Assembly: GCF_024721585.1 (NCBI RefSeq)
Contig: NZ_CP102629.1
Location: 806,001-870,000 of the forward strand
Direction of reading: 5' to 3'
Length of the DNA: 64,000 nucleotides
Source of the DNA: Sphingomicrobium aestuariivivum
Lineage (GTDB): Bacteria; Pseudomonadota; Alphaproteobacteria; Sphingomonadales; Sphingomonadaceae
Positions 7,801 to 18,497 of the stretch are shown one piece after another. Under the pieces are notes generated by a model, which saw only the letters and a list, made by a program, of their open reading frames with translations, was not told where the DNA came from and did no database searches. The position numbers were made by a program, and so were the translations under genes. The first letter of the stretch is position 1, and every line of letters starts with the position of its first letter.

Positions 7801-8268
7801 TCAAGACCCCTCCGTAAGGCGCACGACGTCGCCTTCCGCGATGCCCAGTTCGGCCGAGCGGCCACCCGCGATCTCGAACACCATGCTGACCGGCTCGAGG
7901 CTGCCAAGCGGGGTTTCCGACAGCGGCAGCGTATTTTCATAGATGCGCGCGATGGTGCCGTCCTCGCGCACATAGATGATGTCGAGCGGGATGTAGGTGT
8001 TCTTCATCCAGAAGCTCTGGTTGGCCGGCGTGTCGTAGAGGAACACCATGCCGCGGTCGGGCGCGAGCGATTCGCGGTACATCAGCCCCTTGCGCTGCGC
8101 CTCGGGCGTGTCGGCGATCTCGACGGTGAAATTATGCACTTTACCGCCGGCTGTGGTCACGGTCAGCGGCTTCTCGACGAGGCCGGAGGGCGCGAAACTG
8201 GTGGTGGGTTCGGCAGGCTGGCAGGCGGCCAGCGGCGCGGCGACGAAAAGCGCGAGCGCGGCGCTCAG
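7801..8268 (-). CDS. DUF192 lipoprotein, probable CTG start
   Basis: 155-aa exported protein. A hydrophobic signal ends in lipobox PLAAC, followed by a DUF192 domain with TPEAQRKGLMYRESL, DRGMVFLYDTPANQSFWMKNTYIPLDIIYV and an ELGIAEGDVV end. Function of DUF192 is not established. The frame is certain, but no ATG, GTG or TTG lies between the signal peptide and an ATG at 8451, deep inside the preceding gene. A CTG at 8268-8266 overlaps that gene's TGA as CTGA, the same geometry as a normal ATGA coupling, and gives a perfect signal peptide; I chose it. The alternative is a 216-aa product from 8451. Confidence 0.75.
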   Translation of the reverse strand: MSAALALFVAAPLAACQPAEPTTSFAPSGLVEKPLTVTTAGGKVHNFTVEIADTPEAQRKGLMYRESLAPDRGMVFLYDTPANQSFWMKNTYIPLDIIYVREDGTIARIYENTLPLSETPLGSLEPVSMVFEIAGGRSAELGIAEGDVVRLTEGS

Positions 8269-8867
8269 GCCTCGCGCAAGGCCACCGCGGTGAGCCCCTT
8301 GCGCCCCTCCGCGATCCGCGCTTCCAGCTCGTCCCCCGGCTCGAGGTCGAGCAGGTGCCCCGAGCGCACCGTCTCCATGTGCACGAAGATGTCCGGCTCG
8401 GTCGTCCCGATCCGGTTGAGAAAGCCGTAGCCCTTGACGCGATTGAACCATTTCACCTCCACCGGCTCATAGGGACCGGCGCCTTCGAGCAAGGCTTCGC
8501 GGTCCGCCCGTTCGGCGGTAGAGATGGACGAGCGCGGCTCCTGGGGCAAGGCGGTCGACAGGTCGATCTCGAGAATTTCCCGTGCCTGCCAGCCGCGCTC
8601 CTGCCGCACGGCGAGCAGTTCGACGCTGGCGCCCTCGGGCAGCGAGCGGCGGTCGTGCGCCTCGAGGATCGAGAAATGGACGAGGATGTCGCCATCGATC
8701 GCTTCGGACACGACGAAACCGAAGCCGCGGGTGGCATCGAACCACTTCACGCGGCCCGACACCTCGACGGCACCGTCGGCATCCGAGTCGTTGGCGGAAA
8801 GCTCGCTCATTTCGGCATTGGACCGCTGGAACACCACTCTACTTCTCCGAGACTTGTGAGCGTTCAT
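8265..8867 (-). CDS. Double cold-shock-domain protein
   Basis: 200-aa protein with two OB-fold cold-shock domains: one near residues 37-100 (GRVKWFDATRGFGFV, DILVHFS) and one near 133-200 (VKWFNRVKGYGFLNR, DIFVHMET). The RNP1-like K-G-Y/F-G-F and RNP2-like D-I-F/L-V-H motifs bind single-stranded nucleic acid, so it probably acts as an RNA chaperone. Tandem-CSD proteins are usual in alphaproteobacteria. The start could be MNAHKS (used here) or MSELS at 8810; neither has a strong ribosome-binding site. A TGTCGG-GAAA-CCGACA hairpin (8882-8897) lies in the 5' leader. Confidence 0.92.
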   Translation of the reverse strand: MNAHKSRRSRVVFQRSNAEMSELSANDSDADGAVEVSGRVKWFDATRGFGFVVSEAIDGDILVHFSILEAHDRRSLPEGASVELLAVRQERGWQAREILEIDLSTALPQEPRSSISTAERADREALLEGAGPYEPVEVKWFNRVKGYGFLNRIGTTEPDIFVHMETVRSGHLLDLEPGDELEARIAEGRKGLTAVALREA

Positions 8868-8949
8868 AGCAGAATCGGCTATGTCGGGAAACCGACATCT
8901 AACGGATGTTTAACAAGGTGGGCTACCCCGCCTAGGCGGATTTGCGGAA

Positions 8950-9495
8950 TCAGCGCCGCTCGGCGAGATCGTCGCGGTCGGGCTCGGCGCCGGGCTCGAG
9001 CCGCACGATCGCCTCGGCCAGCGCGAAGGAGTGACCCGCGCGCAGGAAGGCCGCGATCGCCCGCTGGCGTGCCCTGGGGTCCTCGATCACCGCCTGCGCA
9101 TAGGGGCCGAGCCGCCGCCGCGCGGCGAACTTGAGCGCGGCGTCCACCGCGCCCTCGCTCGCGACCTCGCGCGCGCTGCCCGCATCGGCATCGCCCACTC
9201 CCGCCACGCGCAGCGCCTGGTCGACCCGCCGCGAGCCATAGCCGCGCAGCGTCAGGTCGCGCGCCTTGGCTTCGGCATAGAGGCGGTCGTTGACATAGCC
9301 GCGCTGCGCGAACTTGTCGGCCAGCTCCTCGACGGCACGGGGCGCCGCGCCCTCCTCGCCGGCCCAGCCCCGCTCGCGCAACTTGCGATGCAGATAGGCG
9401 GCAAGCTTGGCCCGCGTCGTCGCGAAGCGTTCGGCATAGCGCAGCGCGAGCGCCTCCATTTGCGCCGAATCGAGCGGGGGCCGCGGGCGTTTCAT
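8950..9495 (-). CDS. recX: Regulatory protein RecX
   Basis: 181-aa three-helix-repeat protein that modulates RecA filaments. Seen: LRYAERFATTRAKLAAYLHRKLRERGW, an FAQRGYVNDRLYAEAKARDL block, and LRGYGSRRVDQALR, all diagnostic of RecX. The start MKRPRPPLDS is chosen from the family N-terminus; longer frames would run into the divergent ligase gene. RecX is usually next to recA, but recA is not in this window. Divergent from the acyl-AMP ligase with a 67-base gap. Confidence 0.9.
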   Translation of the reverse strand: MKRPRPPLDSAQMEALALRYAERFATTRAKLAAYLHRKLRERGWAGEEGAAPRAVEELADKFAQRGYVNDRLYAEAKARDLTLRGYGSRRVDQALRVAGVGDADAGSAREVASEGAVDAALKFAARRRLGPYAQAVIEDPRARQRAIAAFLRAGHSFALAEAIVRLEPGAEPDRDDLAERR

Positions 9496-13425: not shown

Positions 13426-13962
13426 ATGTCCCGCTGGTACATCATCCACGCCTATTCCGGTTTCGAGAACAAGGTGAAGGAAGCCGTCCTCTCCGAAGCC
13501 AAGCGCCTCGGCCTCGAGGAAGCGGTCGAGCGCGTCGAGGTTCCGACCGAGACGGTCACCGAGATCAAGCGCGGCAAGAAGGTCCAGACCGAACGCAAGT
13601 TCATGCCGGGCTATGTGCTGGCCAAGCTGACCATGACCGACGATGTCTTCCACCTCGTGAAGAACACGCCCAAGGTCACCGGTTTCCTCGGCAATGGCGG
13701 CAAGCCGCAGCCGATCCCCGACGCGCAGGCCAACCGCATGCTCGACACCAAGGACGAGACCGCCGAGGCGCCCAAGCAGAAGATCTCGGTCGATTACGAG
13801 ATCGGCGACAACGTCAAGGTGCTCGACGGCCCCTTCGCGAGCTTCAACGGCATCGTCGAAGAGCTCAACTTCGAGCGCGGCATGGTCAAGGTGTCGGTCT
13901 CGATCTTCGGCCGCGCCACCCCGGTCGAGCTGGAATTCGACCAGGTCGAACTGGTCAAGTAG
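13426..13962 (+). CDS. nusG: Transcription termination/antitermination factor NusG
   Basis: 178-aa NusG. The NGN domain starts RWYIIHAYSGFENKV and includes FMPGYVLAKLTM and VTGFLGNGGKPQPI; the C-terminal KOW domain contains GDNVKVLDGPFASFNGIVEELN. It binds RNAP to suppress pausing and links to Rho or to ribosomal S10. A strong terminator follows its stop (13985-14013), which closes the secE-nusG transcript before the low-GC gene. Confidence 0.98.
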   Translation: MSRWYIIHAYSGFENKVKEAVLSEAKRLGLEEAVERVEVPTETVTEIKRGKKVQTERKFMPGYVLAKLTMTDDVFHLVKNTPKVTGFLGNGGKPQPIPDAQANRMLDTKDETAEAPKQKISVDYEIGDNVKVLDGPFASFNGIVEELNFERGMVKVSVSIFGRATPVELEFDQVELVK

Positions 13963-13984
13963 GCCCCAAGCCACCGAGAATAAG

Positions 13985-14013
13985 AAAAGGACCGCTTCGG
14001 CGGTCCTTTTTTT
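13985..14013 (+). terminator. Intrinsic terminator after nusG
   Basis: Stem AAAGGACCG / CGGTCCTTT around a CTTCGG loop, followed by seven T. Confidence 0.93.
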
Positions 14014-14070
14014 GTACCGAGAGATGGCATTCCCGGCGGCCAGCGGGTCGCGCCAGCGAACCCGATTGAC

Positions 14071-14095
14071 GGGGGGGGCAGGCCGTCCTGCCCCC
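14071..14095. repeat. Perfect inverted repeat at the edge of the low-GC segment
   Basis: Stem GGGGGCAGG / CCTGCCCCC (14074-14082 and 14087-14095) with loop CCGT. There is no T-tract, so it is a poor terminator. GC content drops just after it (from about 14110), so it marks the left boundary of the low-GC segment. Confidence 0.5.
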
Positions 14096-14189
14096 GTATC
14101 CATTGGCTTTCGAATTCGCCCAAAAAACCTGAAAATAATTCACAGGCTAATGATGTTGATACGCGCTTGTTAAGCACTAAGTCTGCCCA

Positions 14190-15140
14190 GTGAGTATACT
14201 TCTGAATCCACCTCCATCTTTTCCGTTTATACGTGATGGTGCGGACCTCGCCCGAGCTGCCGCCAAGGACTTCGAGTCATTTTTCATGCTGAGAGGCAAA
14301 GTCGAGATTCGCGTTGAGACTGCGCGCGTCAACGCTGCATGCACCAGGGGAGCCGGGGATAATGTCCGAATCCTCATTCCCAGAGAGATGGCTGACGAGG
14401 TCATCGATACGCCCGCAAAGCTCTTTTTCCACCTCCTGATCATTGGCCATGAGATCGCGCATGTAGTGCATCGCCATATTAATGGATGTGGCCAATCCCG
14501 AGATGACTACCGCGCCTTGGAGATGTGGGCCGACTTTTACGGCGCCAAGGTGATGATGTGCCTACTGACCTTTGGCCACCGCGTCCGGCCAAAATTCAAG
14601 ACCTTCTATCCAGACACCCACTTTCTAGAAACTGCATTGGAAGGTATGGGAGAAGCTGCTGGAAGACTTGTGGCTGGAGTCTATACAACTGACCGGCGTT
14701 ATCCATATCCGCTGCTCCGTGTGGGACTAGTCTGCAACGGCGTTACGTCTTTTCTTCGGCGGGAAATTAATGACGCACCAAGTATATTGCCGTTCAGTGT
14801 CTATAAGAGAATTTTTTCTTCGCCACAGGTGAAAGAACTCTTGCTTATAAACCCAGAACATTTGGATGCAGATTTTGAGCCCTTGGAGCGCGCAAGACGC
14901 TGGCACCTTCAAGAACAGGGTGAAGATGCGGCGATCGCCCCTTGGCTTCTTCCAAGATTTCTCGATCACCTCCATACATCGTTTCAACAGACTCCGGAGG
15001 AACTTGAAGCCTCCCGGATAACGCGGCTAAATGAACTCCTTGATGCTGGCCTTCTCTCAGAAGCAGACGTAATCGGAGATTCATTCCTCCACCCTACAGG
15101 TTCGGAAGATACAACGAGCGGCAATGGGGACCACAGGTAG
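14190..15140 (+). CDS. HEXXH zinc metalloprotease, low GC; Lit-like candidate
   Basis: 316-aa soluble protein of unknown function. A zinc-protease signature HEIAH (residues 87-91) is followed 20 residues later by EMWAD (Glu111, Asp115), the HEXXH + ExxxD layout of gluzincins such as M48 and the Lit (U49) phage-exclusion peptidases. Length (E. coli Lit is 297 aa), lack of signal peptide or membrane helix, and position on a foreign-looking segment favour Lit-like over M48, but this is inference. Base composition is far below its neighbours (about 40% GC in 14591-14640). The GTG start has no clear ribosome-binding site; an ATG at 14287 would still keep the active site. Confidence 0.6.
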   Translation: MSILLNPPPSFPFIRDGADLARAAAKDFESFFMLRGKVEIRVETARVNAACTRGAGDNVRILIPREMADEVIDTPAKLFFHLLIIGHEIAHVVHRHINGCGQSRDDYRALEMWADFYGAKVMMCLLTFGHRVRPKFKTFYPDTHFLETALEGMGEAAGRLVAGVYTTDRRYPYPLLRVGLVCNGVTSFLRREINDAPSILPFSVYKRIFSSPQVKELLLINPEHLDADFEPLERARRWHLQEQGEDAAIAPWLLPRFLDHLHTSFQQTPEELEASRITRLNELLDAGLLSEADVIGDSFLHPTGSEDTTSGNGDHR

Positions 15141-15173
15141 CTCCAGCTCGCGCATTCAAGCTCGCTAACCCTC

Positions 15174-15893
15174 TCACCCCTTCCGGTCCATCCGATAGAG
15201 AAACTGCAGCGCCTGCCCCGTGGTGAGCTTCTGCGCCTCCTCCAGCTCGCGCGTCCCCGTCATCTTGATGCGATGCGCGATATCGAAGTTGAGGAAGAAA
15301 CGTTCGACCATGAGGTCCTCGACGACCGCCTCGGCGCACTCCAGCGCTTCCTCGAAACGGGCGGCGAAGGCGGGGTCGACCTTGCGGCGGCGGGGGATGC
15401 TGCTCGGCGCGATGCCGATGCTGTCGGCGGCCAGCCGCACGTTGCCGGTACAGGCGAGCGCGGCAAGGAAAGCGGCCTCGCGCGCCGGCGTCAGGCCGTT
15501 CGCGGCGGTGCGGCGGATCTGGGCGCGGCGCTGGCCGCTGGCGGGGAGGTAGCGGAGCGGTGGGAGTGGTGCGGGCTCGGACGCGGGGGTCGATCTTCCG
15601 GTGACCGGAACCGGCGTGTCCGGCGCGTCTCCATGCTGCGCCAGCCTTGCGGCAAGCGTCCATGTCCCCTCTCGTGCCGCGGGGCGGGTGTGGAAGGCCG
15701 CGAGGGCGGCGGTCCATTTCGCGGCGAAGGCGGGGTCGCTGGCGCGGCGCTTGTAAAGGCCCGCCTTGGGGCGGTGGATGGCCGCGGCGGCGAGCGCGAC
15801 ATTGCCGGTGAGCGCCAGCACTTCGAGGAACACAGCGAAATCCGCGGCGCTATAGGGGCGGCGACGGGGGACGGCTGTAGGATCGGGCTTCAT
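15174..15893 (-). CDS. Tandem-HTH protein, phage terminase small-subunit-like
   Basis: 239-aa Ala-rich basic protein containing two copies of one module. The first (about residues 19-65) has FLEVLALTGNVALAAAAI then KRRASDPAFAAKWTAALA. The second (about 137-185) has FLAALACTGNVRLAADSI then RRRKVDPAFAARFEEALE. Each looks like the helix-turn-helix of phage small terminases (phBC6A51 type), which bind DNA. A C-terminal helix (AEAVVEDLMVERFFLNFDIAHRIK) follows. No large terminase or other phage gene is near, so it is either a phage remnant or a domesticated DNA-binding protein. It is convergent with the metalloprotease gene and has normal high GC. Confidence 0.6.
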   Translation of the reverse strand: MKPDPTAVPRRRPYSAADFAVFLEVLALTGNVALAAAAIHRPKAGLYKRRASDPAFAAKWTAALAAFHTRPAAREGTWTLAARLAQHGDAPDTPVPVTGRSTPASEPAPLPPLRYLPASGQRRAQIRRTAANGLTPAREAAFLAALACTGNVRLAADSIGIAPSSIPRRRKVDPAFAARFEEALECAEAVVEDLMVERFFLNFDIAHRIKMTGTRELEEAQKLTTGQALQFLYRMDRKG

Positions 15894-15955
15894 GCATCAT
15901 TGCATCAGTCCAAATCCTATTTGGCAAGGCGCGCGCGGGCGCGCTCCCCGGGGCG

Positions 15956-17098
15956 CTAGGCGCCAAAGGTCTCGTCGACGATGCGTGCGGCAATACCGGT
16001 CTCGCCCTGCCCTTCGGAGCCCGCGCCAAGTCCGTCGACCGGCACGTCGAGCGAATAGATGAAATGCGCCTCGTCGACATTGCGCTCGGCCTTGCCGCGC
16101 AGCATCGTCGGCACGACGCGGACGAGGAGCTTGGTGCCGAAACCGATGCGCTCGCCCGAGAAGGGCGCGGGGCCGGCGGTCGGTTCGAAGGTCTCGCACC
16201 AGACGAGCTTGAAGCGCCCGTCCTCGACATGCCAGCGCACGACGATCTCCGCCTCGTCATGGTCGAGGCCGCCATATTTCTGCGCGTTGGTCGACAGTTC
16301 GTGGAGCGCGAGGCTGATCTGCTGCGCGGCTTCCGAGCCGATGCGCACCAGCGGCCCCTCGATCCGCACTTTATCGCCATGGACCGCGAGCAGCGGCTCG
16401 AGCTGGCGGCGGACGATGGTCTCCACCCCCTGGCTGGTCTTGTCGTCGCCGCGCATGATGGAGCTGGTCGCGCCGGCGAGCGCGTCGATGCGCCCGGCGA
16501 AGGTCTCGACATAGCTCTCGATATCCTTGGCATCGCGCGCGCTCTGGCGGGCGAGCGAGGAGACGACGGCGAGCAGGTTGTTCGAGCGATGCACCGCCTC
16601 GCGCGTCAGGATGGCGAGCTTGGCATTGGCGTCGGACAGTTCGGCGGTGCGCTCATCGACCTTGGCCTCGAGCGCGTCGCGCGCCTCGCGCAGTTCCTCG
16701 TTGGCGCGGCGCAAGTCGCCGGGGCTCGGCAAGGCGACGAGGGCGGGGATCATGCGGAACAGGAGGATCGCGGTGATGGTGGAAACGATGCCGGTCGCCA
16801 GCTTGAGCGCGCCGACATAGGGGTAGATGGGCACCCACAAGGTGACGATGCCGAACAGGTGCGTGAAGCCGCACAGGAGGATGAAGCTGGCGAACAGCAT
16901 GACGATGCCGCGGTGGGGCACGTCCTTGCGGCGCCTCAGCACCATCAGCAGCGCCACGGGGATCGCCATGTAGGAGGCGAAGATGAGCGCGTCGGAGCCC
17001 GCCCACAGGAATACCAGCCACGGCTGCCACAACAGGCACATGCCGTGGGGCATGTAGTCGGCCACCGTGACCGCGTGGCGCATCAGCTCGTCTGTCAT
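15956..17098 (-). CDS. HWE histidine kinase with ETR1-type ethylene-sensor domain
   Basis: 380-aa membrane kinase. Residues 22-120 form three transmembrane helices resembling the plant ETR1 ethylene-binding domain. Asp36, Tyr43, Pro47, Ile73, Cys76 and His80 match ETR1 Asp25, Tyr32, Pro36, Ile62, Cys65 and His69 at identical spacing; Cys and His bind the copper ion there. A coiled coil (about 128-160) leads to an HWE/HisKA_2 kinase: phospho-acceptor His170 in EAVHRSNNLLAVVSS, N-box LHELSTNAQKYGG, and the W-x-E of LVWCET. The start MTDELMRH follows AGGGGA. No response regulator is adjacent. Whether it senses ethylene or another ligand is open. Confidence 0.88.
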   Translation of the reverse strand: MTDELMRHAVTVADYMPHGMCLLWQPWLVFLWAGSDALIFASYMAIPVALLMVLRRRKDVPHRGIVMLFASFILLCGFTHLFGIVTLWVPIYPYVGALKLATGIVSTITAILLFRMIPALVALPSPGDLRRANEELREARDALEAKVDERTAELSDANAKLAILTREAVHRSNNLLAVVSSLARQSARDAKDIESYVETFAGRIDALAGATSSIMRGDDKTSQGVETIVRRQLEPLLAVHGDKVRIEGPLVRIGSEAAQQISLALHELSTNAQKYGGLDHDEAEIVVRWHVEDGRFKLVWCETFEPTAGPAPFSGERIGFGTKLLVRVVPTMLRGKAERNVDEAHFIYSLDVPVDGLGAGSEGQGETGIAARIVDETFGA

Positions 17099-17205
17099 CT
17101 TGTTCCCCTCACGCAACGACCAATGCCTTAGGGGGACGGATCGATCCGGTCCAGCGACAAGGTCTTGGGGAGAGACGATTTTTCCCGGCGCCCTTCGGTG
17201 GTAGC

Positions 17206-17234
17206 TTGAAAGCCGCGCCGCCGCCTGCTAGGCG
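17206..17234 (+). promoter_or_regulatory. Candidate promoter of rplK-rplA
   Basis: TTGAAA, 17-base spacer, TAGGCG, then a GC-rich stretch; about 130 bases before rplK. It has the same TTGAnn-N17-TAG form as the tRNA and rplJ promoters. The leader also holds a GGGTC...GACCC hairpin near 17278-17299. Confidence 0.35.
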
Positions 17235-17364
17235 CGCGCTCGTCTATTCCAAATGGATTCGGACATTCGCGCGGGAGGGTCGCCCCGGTGACCCGCTTGT
17301 ACCGCTTAACATGAGGGCTGCAGCCTCGGCAGCAGTCCCGACAGTGTGAAAGGAATTCTTTGCC

Positions 17365-17796
17365 ATGGCGAAGAAGATTTCGGGCTATATCAAGCTCCAG
17401 GTGCCTTCGGGCGTCGCCAACCCCTCCCCGCCGATCGGCCCCGCGCTCGGTCAGCGTGGTGTCAACATCATGGAATTCTGCAAGGCCTTCAACGCCGCCA
17501 CGCAGGACATGGAAAAGAACATGCCGATCCCGACGACCATCACGGTCTATGCGGATCGCAGCTTCTCCTTCACCATGAAGACCCCGCCCGCCAGCTTCCT
17601 CCTGAAGCGCGCCGCCAAGCTCAAGTCGGGTTCGAAGGAACCGGGCAAGGTCTCGGCCGGCACGATCAAGCGCAGCGAAGTTGCCAAGATCGCGGAAACC
17701 AAGATGGCCGACCTCAATGCCAATGACATCGAGGCCGCCACGAAGATCATCGAAGGCTCGGCGCGCGCCATGGGCCTCGAAGTGGTGGAGGGTTAA
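17365..17796 (+). CDS. rplK: 50S ribosomal protein L11
   Basis: 143-aa L11. The N-terminal domain carries [26 protein letters not shown], the Pro-rich GTPase-centre region, and the C-terminal rRNA-binding domain ends [18 protein letters not shown]11 is needed for the EF-G/RelA response at the factor-binding site. rplA follows after 2 bases, so the two are co-transcribed. Unusually, nusG is 3.4 kb upstream rather than adjacent. Confidence 0.98.
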
Positions 17797-17798
17797 TC

Positions 17799-18497
17799 AT
17801 GGCCAAGCTCACGAAGAAGCAGAAGGCGCTCGCCGAAAAGGTCGATTCCGAAAAGCTGTACGGCGTCGATGAAGCCATTTCGCTGGTCAAGGAACTGGCC
17901 ACCTCGAAGTTCGACGAAACCGTCGAGATCGCCATGAACCTCGGTGTCGACCCGCGTCACGCCGACCAGATGGTCCGCGGCGTCGTCGCCATGCCCAGCG
18001 GCACCGGCAAGACCCTCAAGGTCGCCGTGTTCGCCAAGGGCGACAAGGCCGACGCGGCCAAGGAAGCCGGCGCGGACGTCGTCGGTGCCGAAGACCTCAT
18101 GGAAGACATGCAGAACGGCAACCTCGACTATGACCGCGTGATCGCCACGCCGGACATGATGGGTGTCGTCGGTCGCCTCGGCAAGGTGCTCGGCCCCAAG
18201 GGCCTGATGCCGAACCCGAAGCTCGGTACAGTGACCCCCAACCCTGCCGAAGCGGTCAAGAACGCCAAGGCCGGTGAAGTCCAGTATCGCGCCGAGAAGA
18301 ACGGCATCGTCCACGCCGGCATCGGCAAGGCGAGCTTCGCCGACAAGGACCTCAAGGCCAACTTCGACGCGTTCGTAAACGCGATCGTCAAGGCCAAGCC
18401 GTCGGGCGCCAAGGGCAAGTATGTCCAGAAGGTCGCGCTGTCCTCGACCATGGGTCGCGGCGTGCGCATCGACGTGAGCGACGTCGAAGGCGCGTAA
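17799..18497 (+). CDS. rplA: 50S ribosomal protein L1
   Basis: 232-aa L1, a mobile-stalk protein and in many bacteria the translational repressor of its own rplKA mRNA. Seen: [36 protein letters not shown] and [18 protein letters not shown], both highly conserved. Begins 2 bases after rplK, suggesting coupling. A strong terminator at 18528-18560 ends the operon, so rplJ-rplL is a separate unit here. Confidence 0.98.

Follow-up and report, generated by a model that had tools for sequence, protein, structure and literature searches.

The plant ethylene receptor ETR1 has a GAF domain, a kinase and a receiver. Bacterial ethylene receptors are already known, and one is proven in Azospirillum: AzoEtr1 of Azospirillum brasilense is described as a functional ethylene receptor, and its N-terminal 130 residues, expressed in yeast, are reported to bind ethylene (PMC11819568). 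In plant and Azospirillum work, seven residues are reported to be required for ethylene binding (PMC11819568, PMC6944256), and a lysine, K98 in AzoEtr1 and K91 in AtETR1, is described as involved in receptor output (PMC11819568). SynEtr1 (Slr1212) of Synechocystis is reported to add a light-sensing GAF domain to the ethylene-binding domain (EBD) (PMC7700396). Ethylene-receptor-like proteins are also reported in many proteobacteria (PMC11819568; PMC7700396), and the novelty implied by a first-pass annotation of the gene studied here is therefore weaker than it appears. Bacterial ethylene sensing has been shown in few species, and the output pathways are mostly open.

HWE/HisKA_2 kinases are described as well-established general-stress sensors in Alphaproteobacteria (PMC12148442). 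In Sphingomonas melonis, such kinases with an HRxxN motif are reported to feed PhyR and SdrG; its seven general-stress kinases (Paks) are encoded at separate places in the genome and use these two regulators in common (PMC5898713). Paks and kinases of the LOV-HK/EL346 type are soluble or reside in the cytoplasm, many of them carry a LOV or PAS sensor, and no ethylene domain on kinases of this type is described in the accessible parts of two papers on them (PMC5898713, PMC10359499). The word ethylene is absent from the accessible text of the HWE papers PMC10359499 and PMC12148442. No EBD-HWE kinase appears among the literature titles listed; Papon and Binder 2019 or Lacey and Binder 2016 may show the architecture.

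Here we analysed a kinase gene in a 64-kb stretch of DNA (the window). The encoded protein resembles AzoEtr1 in being alphaproteobacterial and in its three-helix N-terminal EBD, where D36, C76, H80 and K99 correspond to D35, C75, H79 and K98 as given for AzoEtr1 (PMC11819568). Whereas AzoEtr1 has a PAS domain and a neighbouring response-regulator gene, the protein described here has an HWE kinase and no PAS match, and no receiver match lies within the 64 kb. SynEtr1 and plant ETR1 have the same type of EBD; the seven residues were matched to ETR1 alone, using what we take to be the AtETR1 N-terminal sequence and the full list of its seven residues. Unlike in SynEtr1 and ETR1, a bare helix joins the EBD to the kinase. 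With the Paks and the LOV-HK/EL346 type, the protein shares the HWE/HisKA_2 class, the HRxxN motif and a gene located away from regulators.

Architecture of the putative receptor kinase

Judged from its sequence, the product of 15956-17098 looks like a membrane receptor kinase with the following parts:

15956..17098, minus strand: EBD-HWE sensor histidine kinase gene, 380 aa, ATG start
17036..17047, minus strand: His18-Gly-x-Cys21 box preceding helix 1; His and Cys invariant in 45/45 EBD-HWE rows
16730..17017, minus strand: ETR1_N ethylene-binding-type three-helix domain, residues 28-123, with D36, Y43, I46, P47, I73, C76, H80 and K99
16835..16912, minus strand: predicted helix 2, residues 63-88, with Ile73, Cys76 and His80 (AlphaFold2 model)
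16592..16744, minus strand: linker helix from Pro118 to the phosphoacceptor His170, 51 residues (family lengths 51, 58, 65 or 79)
16352..16600, minus strand: HWE_HK phosphotransfer part, residues 167-249, with the HRSNN motif and His170 (Pfam and alignment)
16040..16345, minus strand: HWE-type ATPase part, about residues 252-353, with HELSTNAQKY, W300-x-E302 and GFGT (Pfam match to 252-299 below cut-off)
15965..16003, minus strand: C-terminal tail, residues 366-378, of AARIVDETFG type (loose pattern; a low-confidence helix in the model)

Translation is read from the ATG at 17098, just 5' of which lies the ribosome-binding-site-like stretch GAGGGGAAC; an alternative in-frame TTG is found at 17116. 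In Pfam searches of the kinase, ETR1_N (PF25487) scored 103.6 bits against a cut-off of 27 (E 6.8e-30) and HWE_HK, in the C-terminal part, 62 bits against 22.8 (E 9.5e-17); both profiles matched all 33 members of alignment A2. The HWE class hallmarks are intact in the alignment (H266-E267 in the N-box, W300-x-E302), as are the phosphoacceptor motif H170-R171-S-N-N174 (HRxxN) and the N-box residue N271. The best sequence and fold matches were LOV-HK kinase domains (5epv and 6ph4, then 4r39). No solved ethylene-domain structure was found by sequence, where all four matches at E <= 0.01 fell in the kinase half, or among the best 50 of 623 fold matches.

Alignment to AtETR1 recovered all seven ethylene residues: D36, Y43, I46, P47, I73, C76 and H80 correspond to D25, Y32, I35, P36, I62, C65 and H69, and the spacing from the pocket sites of helix 1 to those of helix 2 is the same in both proteins. 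A chance or partial likeness to ETR1 is ruled out by the profile scores together with this alignment. The first-pass annotation had thus been right in calling an HWE-type kinase with a complete ETR1-type pocket and had counted its six pocket positions exactly, although its list was one short, since Ile46 (= I35) completes the seven. Lys99 corresponds to K91 of AtETR1 and, judged by spacing, to K98 of AzoEtr1; it is invariant in all 45 EBD-HWE rows.

The AlphaFold2 model (mean pLDDT 82.9, pTM 0.53) predicts helices at 26-56, 63-88 and 92-122, followed by a single helix at 126-189. The first three are predicted membrane helices, and Cys76 and His80, whose placement outside helix 2 had been named beforehand as a refutation, are both modelled inside it (63-88). 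In the sequence, helix 1 is followed by Arg/Lys-rich residues and helix 3 by the kinase, which fits a putative N-out, C-in topology. Because of the residue identity with AtETR1 and AzoEtr1, the EBD is predicted, with high confidence, to bind Cu(I) and ethylene.

In the HGxC box, a His lies 18 residues before the helix-1 Asp. Of 33 family-level EBD proteins, 32 have this box and the other comes from a broken gene; the AtETR1 N-terminus presumably lacks it. The box is a possible second metal or redox site.

Distribution and conservation of the family

The searches covered 298 genomes of the window's family, 71 genomes of its genus and a set of named genomes, scanned with MPHGMCLL or SD[LA]LIF[LA][SA]Y as seeds. 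PF25487 was present in 30 of the 298 family genomes, the strain's own included, coupled, as judged by motif, to HisKA, HisKA_2 or HWE kinases. The full-length gene was found in four of the 71 genus genomes, again including its own (E <= 1e-40), and a congener's copy is 88% identical to the window's kinase. The named-genome scan returned 70 loci, 37 of which (L090-L126) match from the EBD through the kinase. All 37 are alphaproteobacterial by record title, from Erythrobacter, Qipengyuania, Blastomonas, Novosphingobium, Leisingera, Cognatishimia, Loktanella, Jannaschia, Cereibacter, Aurantimonas, Notoacmeibacter and others, and the EBD-HWE family was found here only in Alphaproteobacteria. In an EBD tree built by a quick method from few columns, a branch with an SH-aLRT of 97 separates the 50 EBD-HWE rows, counting duplicates, from the rest, and a single origin of the EBD-HWE fusion is therefore likely.

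The seven pocket residues are invariant in the 45 aligned EBD-HWE rows, which come from 43 genomes and include two duplicates (L047 = L106, L048 = L115); D36 and Y43 are partly fixed by the seed patterns, while I46, P47, I73, C76 and H80 are free of them. Mean pairwise identity is 73.4% for the EBD, 53.0% for the linker and 46.8% for the kinase among the 39 rows whose kinase is intact, a set that contains two duplicates and leaves out the truncated L108. Given the difference between 73.4% and 46.8%, the sensor is the more constrained half.

The seven residues also occur in all 28 readable PF25487 proteins of the window's family besides its own. An ETR1_N gene at L034 (G007:C1:2225708-2225997) is split over two frames, apparently broken, and was left unscored. 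Beyond the EBD-HWE family, the full pocket is present in 89 of 95 scored EBD sequences, and the other six vary at Ile, Pro or the second Ile; the Asp and Tyr counts in this scoring are biased, because its anchor demands Asp and an aromatic residue. Unscored EBDs either did not fit the anchor pattern (L034, L132, L135, L153) or were missing (L138, L156, L158). At the level of sequence, a complete pocket is the rule for the PF25487 domain and no peculiarity of the window's gene.

Heptad spacing of the linker

The distance from Pro118 at the end of TM3 to the phosphoacceptor His is 51 residues in three rows, 58 in 29, 65 in 12 and 79 in one (44 rows parsed by pattern, L101 read separately). All 45 lengths are 2 mod 7 and so always whole heptads apart. 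Since the lengths are related by descent, these rows amount to about three events: at least three changes are needed on a tree of 43 rows from which the linker columns were excluded. The chance of a whole-heptad change is one in seven for each, or about 0.003 for three.

Among the other EBD kinases, 28 of 45 proteins could be parsed by patterns and 17 could not. Within the window's family, a direct EBD-HisKA link measures 49 or 63 residues (0 mod 7, 15 of 15 proteins), and three HisKA_2 kinases have 100 (2 mod 7). The exceptions are L147 and L150, near relatives of each other outside the family, which have HisKA kinases, a direct link of 50 residues, which breaks the rule, and altered pockets. 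PAS-interrupted proteins, with PAS presence judged by eye, follow no heptad rule. The whole-heptad spacing suggests coiled-coil signalling, and the simplest reading, a fairly probable one, is an unbroken coiled coil that runs from TM3 into the kinase and whose phase matters.

A pseudokinase branch that keeps the pocket

Five rows (L049, L118, L120, L121, L122; the L049 gene lies at 8201-9418 of that locus) are pseudokinases in the alignment: N271 is replaced by Arg and G321 is lost in all five, and the phosphoacceptor His is changed to Gln in four. They form one clade (100/100) of Erythrobacter relatives and keep the seven pocket residues and a linker length of 58. Their mean identity is 82.1% in the EBD versus 56.5% in the kinase, and the pocket seems to be kept by selection without kinase catalysis. 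No second PF25487 match was found in the pseudokinase host G180. Among the genes that cluster across all five loci are those for a biotin carboxyl carrier and a biotin carboxylase, together with one for a type II dehydroquinase; Pfam was run on a single example of each.

Plant subfamily II ethylene receptors have likewise lost histidine-kinase residues and kept the pocket. This likeness concerns the Erythrobacter branch only, which differs from the plant receptors in being of the HWE type and lying near accB, accC and aroQ; we infer that the two arose independently.

Of the 43 tree rows, 31 end in an AARIVDxSFG-type C-terminal tail when a loose pattern is applied. The five pseudokinases all lack it, as do seven other tree rows and L101, which is outside the tree set, and this ending was not seen in two other HWE kinases of the strain's own genome that were inspected.

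Chromosomal slot and neighbouring genes

The kinase gene is divergent from rplK and lies in a slot with the following borders:

13426..13962, plus strand: nusG, one slot border
17365..18497, plus strand: rplK and rplA, the other slot border

Across several genera, nusG, rplK or rplA adjoin the kinase in 13 of 43 loci. The nusG-rplK interval (window 13963-17364) was compared in eight of 67 congeners without the gene, chosen mostly for the closeness of their rplK. Five of these slots hold another HWE kinase on the same strand, four of them PAS-HWE proteins and one with an unassigned N-terminus (L210-L213, L215), and a sixth holds a PAS-HisKA-receiver hybrid; by eye, no kinase was recognised in the remaining two. 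The slot seems to house exchangeable orphan kinases.

None of the 29 receiver (PF00072) matches of the 2.35-Mb genome (E <= 0.001) lies in the 64-kb window, and the two closest lie some 57 kb and 87 kb away from the kinase gene, which bears out the earlier remark that no response regulator is adjacent. The search of relatives for a conserved partner regulator that had been proposed with it gave six receiver-bearing ORFs in five of 43 flanks, not conserved, and no receiver in the other 38 (about 6 kb, shorter at contig ends; receiver profile built from the genome's own receivers). Because the S. melonis Paks are scattered and share SdrG and PhyR, a missing neighbour regulator is not odd for this class of kinase in sphingomonads.

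The ORF at 15174-15893 (minus strand, 239 aa) lies 62 bases downstream of the kinase and contains two similar helix-turn-helix-like segments, as judged by eye; it had no Pfam or NCBIfam match at E <= 0.1. It was rejected as a partner: it occurs in nine of 71 genus genomes (E <= 1e-10), is missing from the kinase carrier G327 and clusters with ORFs at two congener loci only. The ORF at 14190-15140 (plus strand, 316 aa) shows sub-threshold peptidase M48 and Lit-like matches around a HEIAH stretch. In three relatives, the divergent neighbour of the kinase encodes a DUF4118-PAS-PAS-HWE-receiver hybrid (L116:3216-5642, L117:3354-5636, L119:3344-5599), identified by Pfam in L116 and L119, the receiver of L119 below cut-off, and by likeness in L117. 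This hybrid is a possible partner in that clade.

The general stress response as candidate output

A profile search of the strain's own genome gave five HWE_HK matches: the window's gene, a phytochrome hybrid, a CheB-CheR-PAS kinase, a GAF-PAS kinase and a HisKA_2/HWE kinase beside stress genes, the last of which matches HisKA_2 better than HWE_HK. It lies in a stress locus at 955-959 kb with PhyR (NCBIfam PhyR family, 377.9 bits vs 240), NepR (two matches), an ECF sigma factor and a PhyT-like gene. The sigma factor beside PhyR is taken for EcfG, and the PhyT name is likewise a reading. The prerequisites of a Pak-type kinase are thus present, namely an HWE/HisKA_2 class with HRxxN, an orphan gene and a host with PhyR, NepR and an EcfG-like sigma factor; they are necessary but insufficient.

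NepR was detected in all 40 EBD-HWE genomes searched (42 requested) and in the strain's own genome. In the family of the Leisingera carrier, NepR occurs in 70 of 150 genomes (completeness not given), and the EBD-HWE gene in eight of 394, seven of these with NepR. The comparison of 7/8 with 67/146 gives a Fisher p of 0.024, which ignores shared ancestry, assembly gaps and completeness. Carrier G479 had no NepR match at E <= 0.001, and over all carriers searched the count is 44 of 45; because of G479, the stress response is not the output everywhere.

The EcfG-type promoter GGAAC-N15-18-CGTT was found in one of 42 upstream regions, against four of 1680 random 300-base windows. The published pattern, quoted in PMC12148442 as GGAAC-N16-17-C/GGTT, likewise gave one of 42 (L126), against nine of 1680, or 13 of 1680 with N15-18. 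Upstream of the window's gene, no such pattern was found. As a control, the published pattern located sites at 957047, 61 bases before nepR, and at 959048 within the 14-kb stress locus. With no enrichment while the nepR control site was found, the promoter was set aside as evidence tying the gene to the stress regulon. The class of the kinase, its orphan position and its co-occurrence with NepR all suggest the PhyR-NepR-EcfG response, but given the G479 exception and the negative promoter test we rate an output through it at about even.

Proposed mechanism and alternatives

We propose that the three N-terminal helices would hold Cu(I) between Cys76 and His80 and that this copper pocket would bind ethylene or a similar small pi-ligand. 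The continuous helix from TM3 to the kinase could relay a change in helix packing to the phosphoacceptor helix and alter autophosphorylation of His170. The orphan HWE kinase would then most likely phosphorylate shared regulators (PhyR and/or a single-domain receiver of the SdrG type), thereby tuning the PhyR-NepR-EcfG general stress response. Taken as a whole, this chain from a copper/ethylene receptor through a heptad helix and an HWE kinase to the stress response is slightly favoured.

HWE kinases also act outside the stress response, and the same ethylene receptor might signal through an HWE-associated single-domain or hybrid receiver for motility, biofilm or light rather than through PhyR. 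Candidates for such a route exist: the divergent PAS-PAS-HWE-receiver hybrid of L116, L117 and L119, and in the strain's own genome the receivers L085 and L086 and the phytochrome-HWE hybrid with a sub-threshold receiver match. SynEtr1 and AzoEtr1 are described as acting on phototaxis and biofilm (PMC11819568), and G479 carries the kinase without NepR. The presence of NepR in 40 of 40 searched carriers and the strain itself, and flanks free of receivers at 38 of 43 loci, weigh the other way and leave this alternative rather unlikely, if a serious one. More doubtful is a metal or redox sensor whose pocket binds copper together with a non-ethylene ligand (copper itself, CO, O2 or another alkene). 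Only the Cys and His among the seven residues are metal ligands, and the extra invariant His18/Cys21 box before helix 1 could be a second metal or redox site; however, the ethylene residues beyond the metal ligands are also invariant in all 45 rows, and AzoEtr1, with the same spacing of D, C, H and K, binds ethylene.

The patchy presence of the gene, in four of 71 genus genomes and eight of 394 in another family, would also suit a relic, decaying or gained by horizontal transfer, that no longer has a role in the strain. Such a relic is hard to reconcile with an open frame, intact kinase motifs, 88% identity to a congener's copy and, at 13 of 43 loci from different genera, the recurrence of nusG, rplK or rplA next to the kinase, and we regard it as very improbable.

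Conclusions

Newly seen here are the heptad linker spacing, the pocket-keeping pseudokinase branch and the pointers to PhyR-NepR-EcfG. Many carriers have marine or aquatic rather than plant-associated names, an impression that would point to non-plant ethylene sources; marine ethylene formed by sunlight on organic matter is a possible natural source. Tentatively, and at somewhat less than even confidence, we suggest that an ethylene receptor serves Alphaproteobacteria, including many aquatic ones, as one of their general-stress sensors, its signal passing along a heptad-locked helix to an orphan HWE kinase, and that a kinase-dead form in Erythrobacter keeps the pocket and parallels plant subfamily II.

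The EBD-HWE family is a very short receptor, consisting of pocket, helix and kinase, and its natural series of linker lengths would allow direct testing of the signalling step. The pseudokinase branch poses the question of what role an ethylene pocket has without a kinase. For the receptors with intact kinases, the alphaproteobacterial general stress response is a concrete candidate output for which reporters exist.
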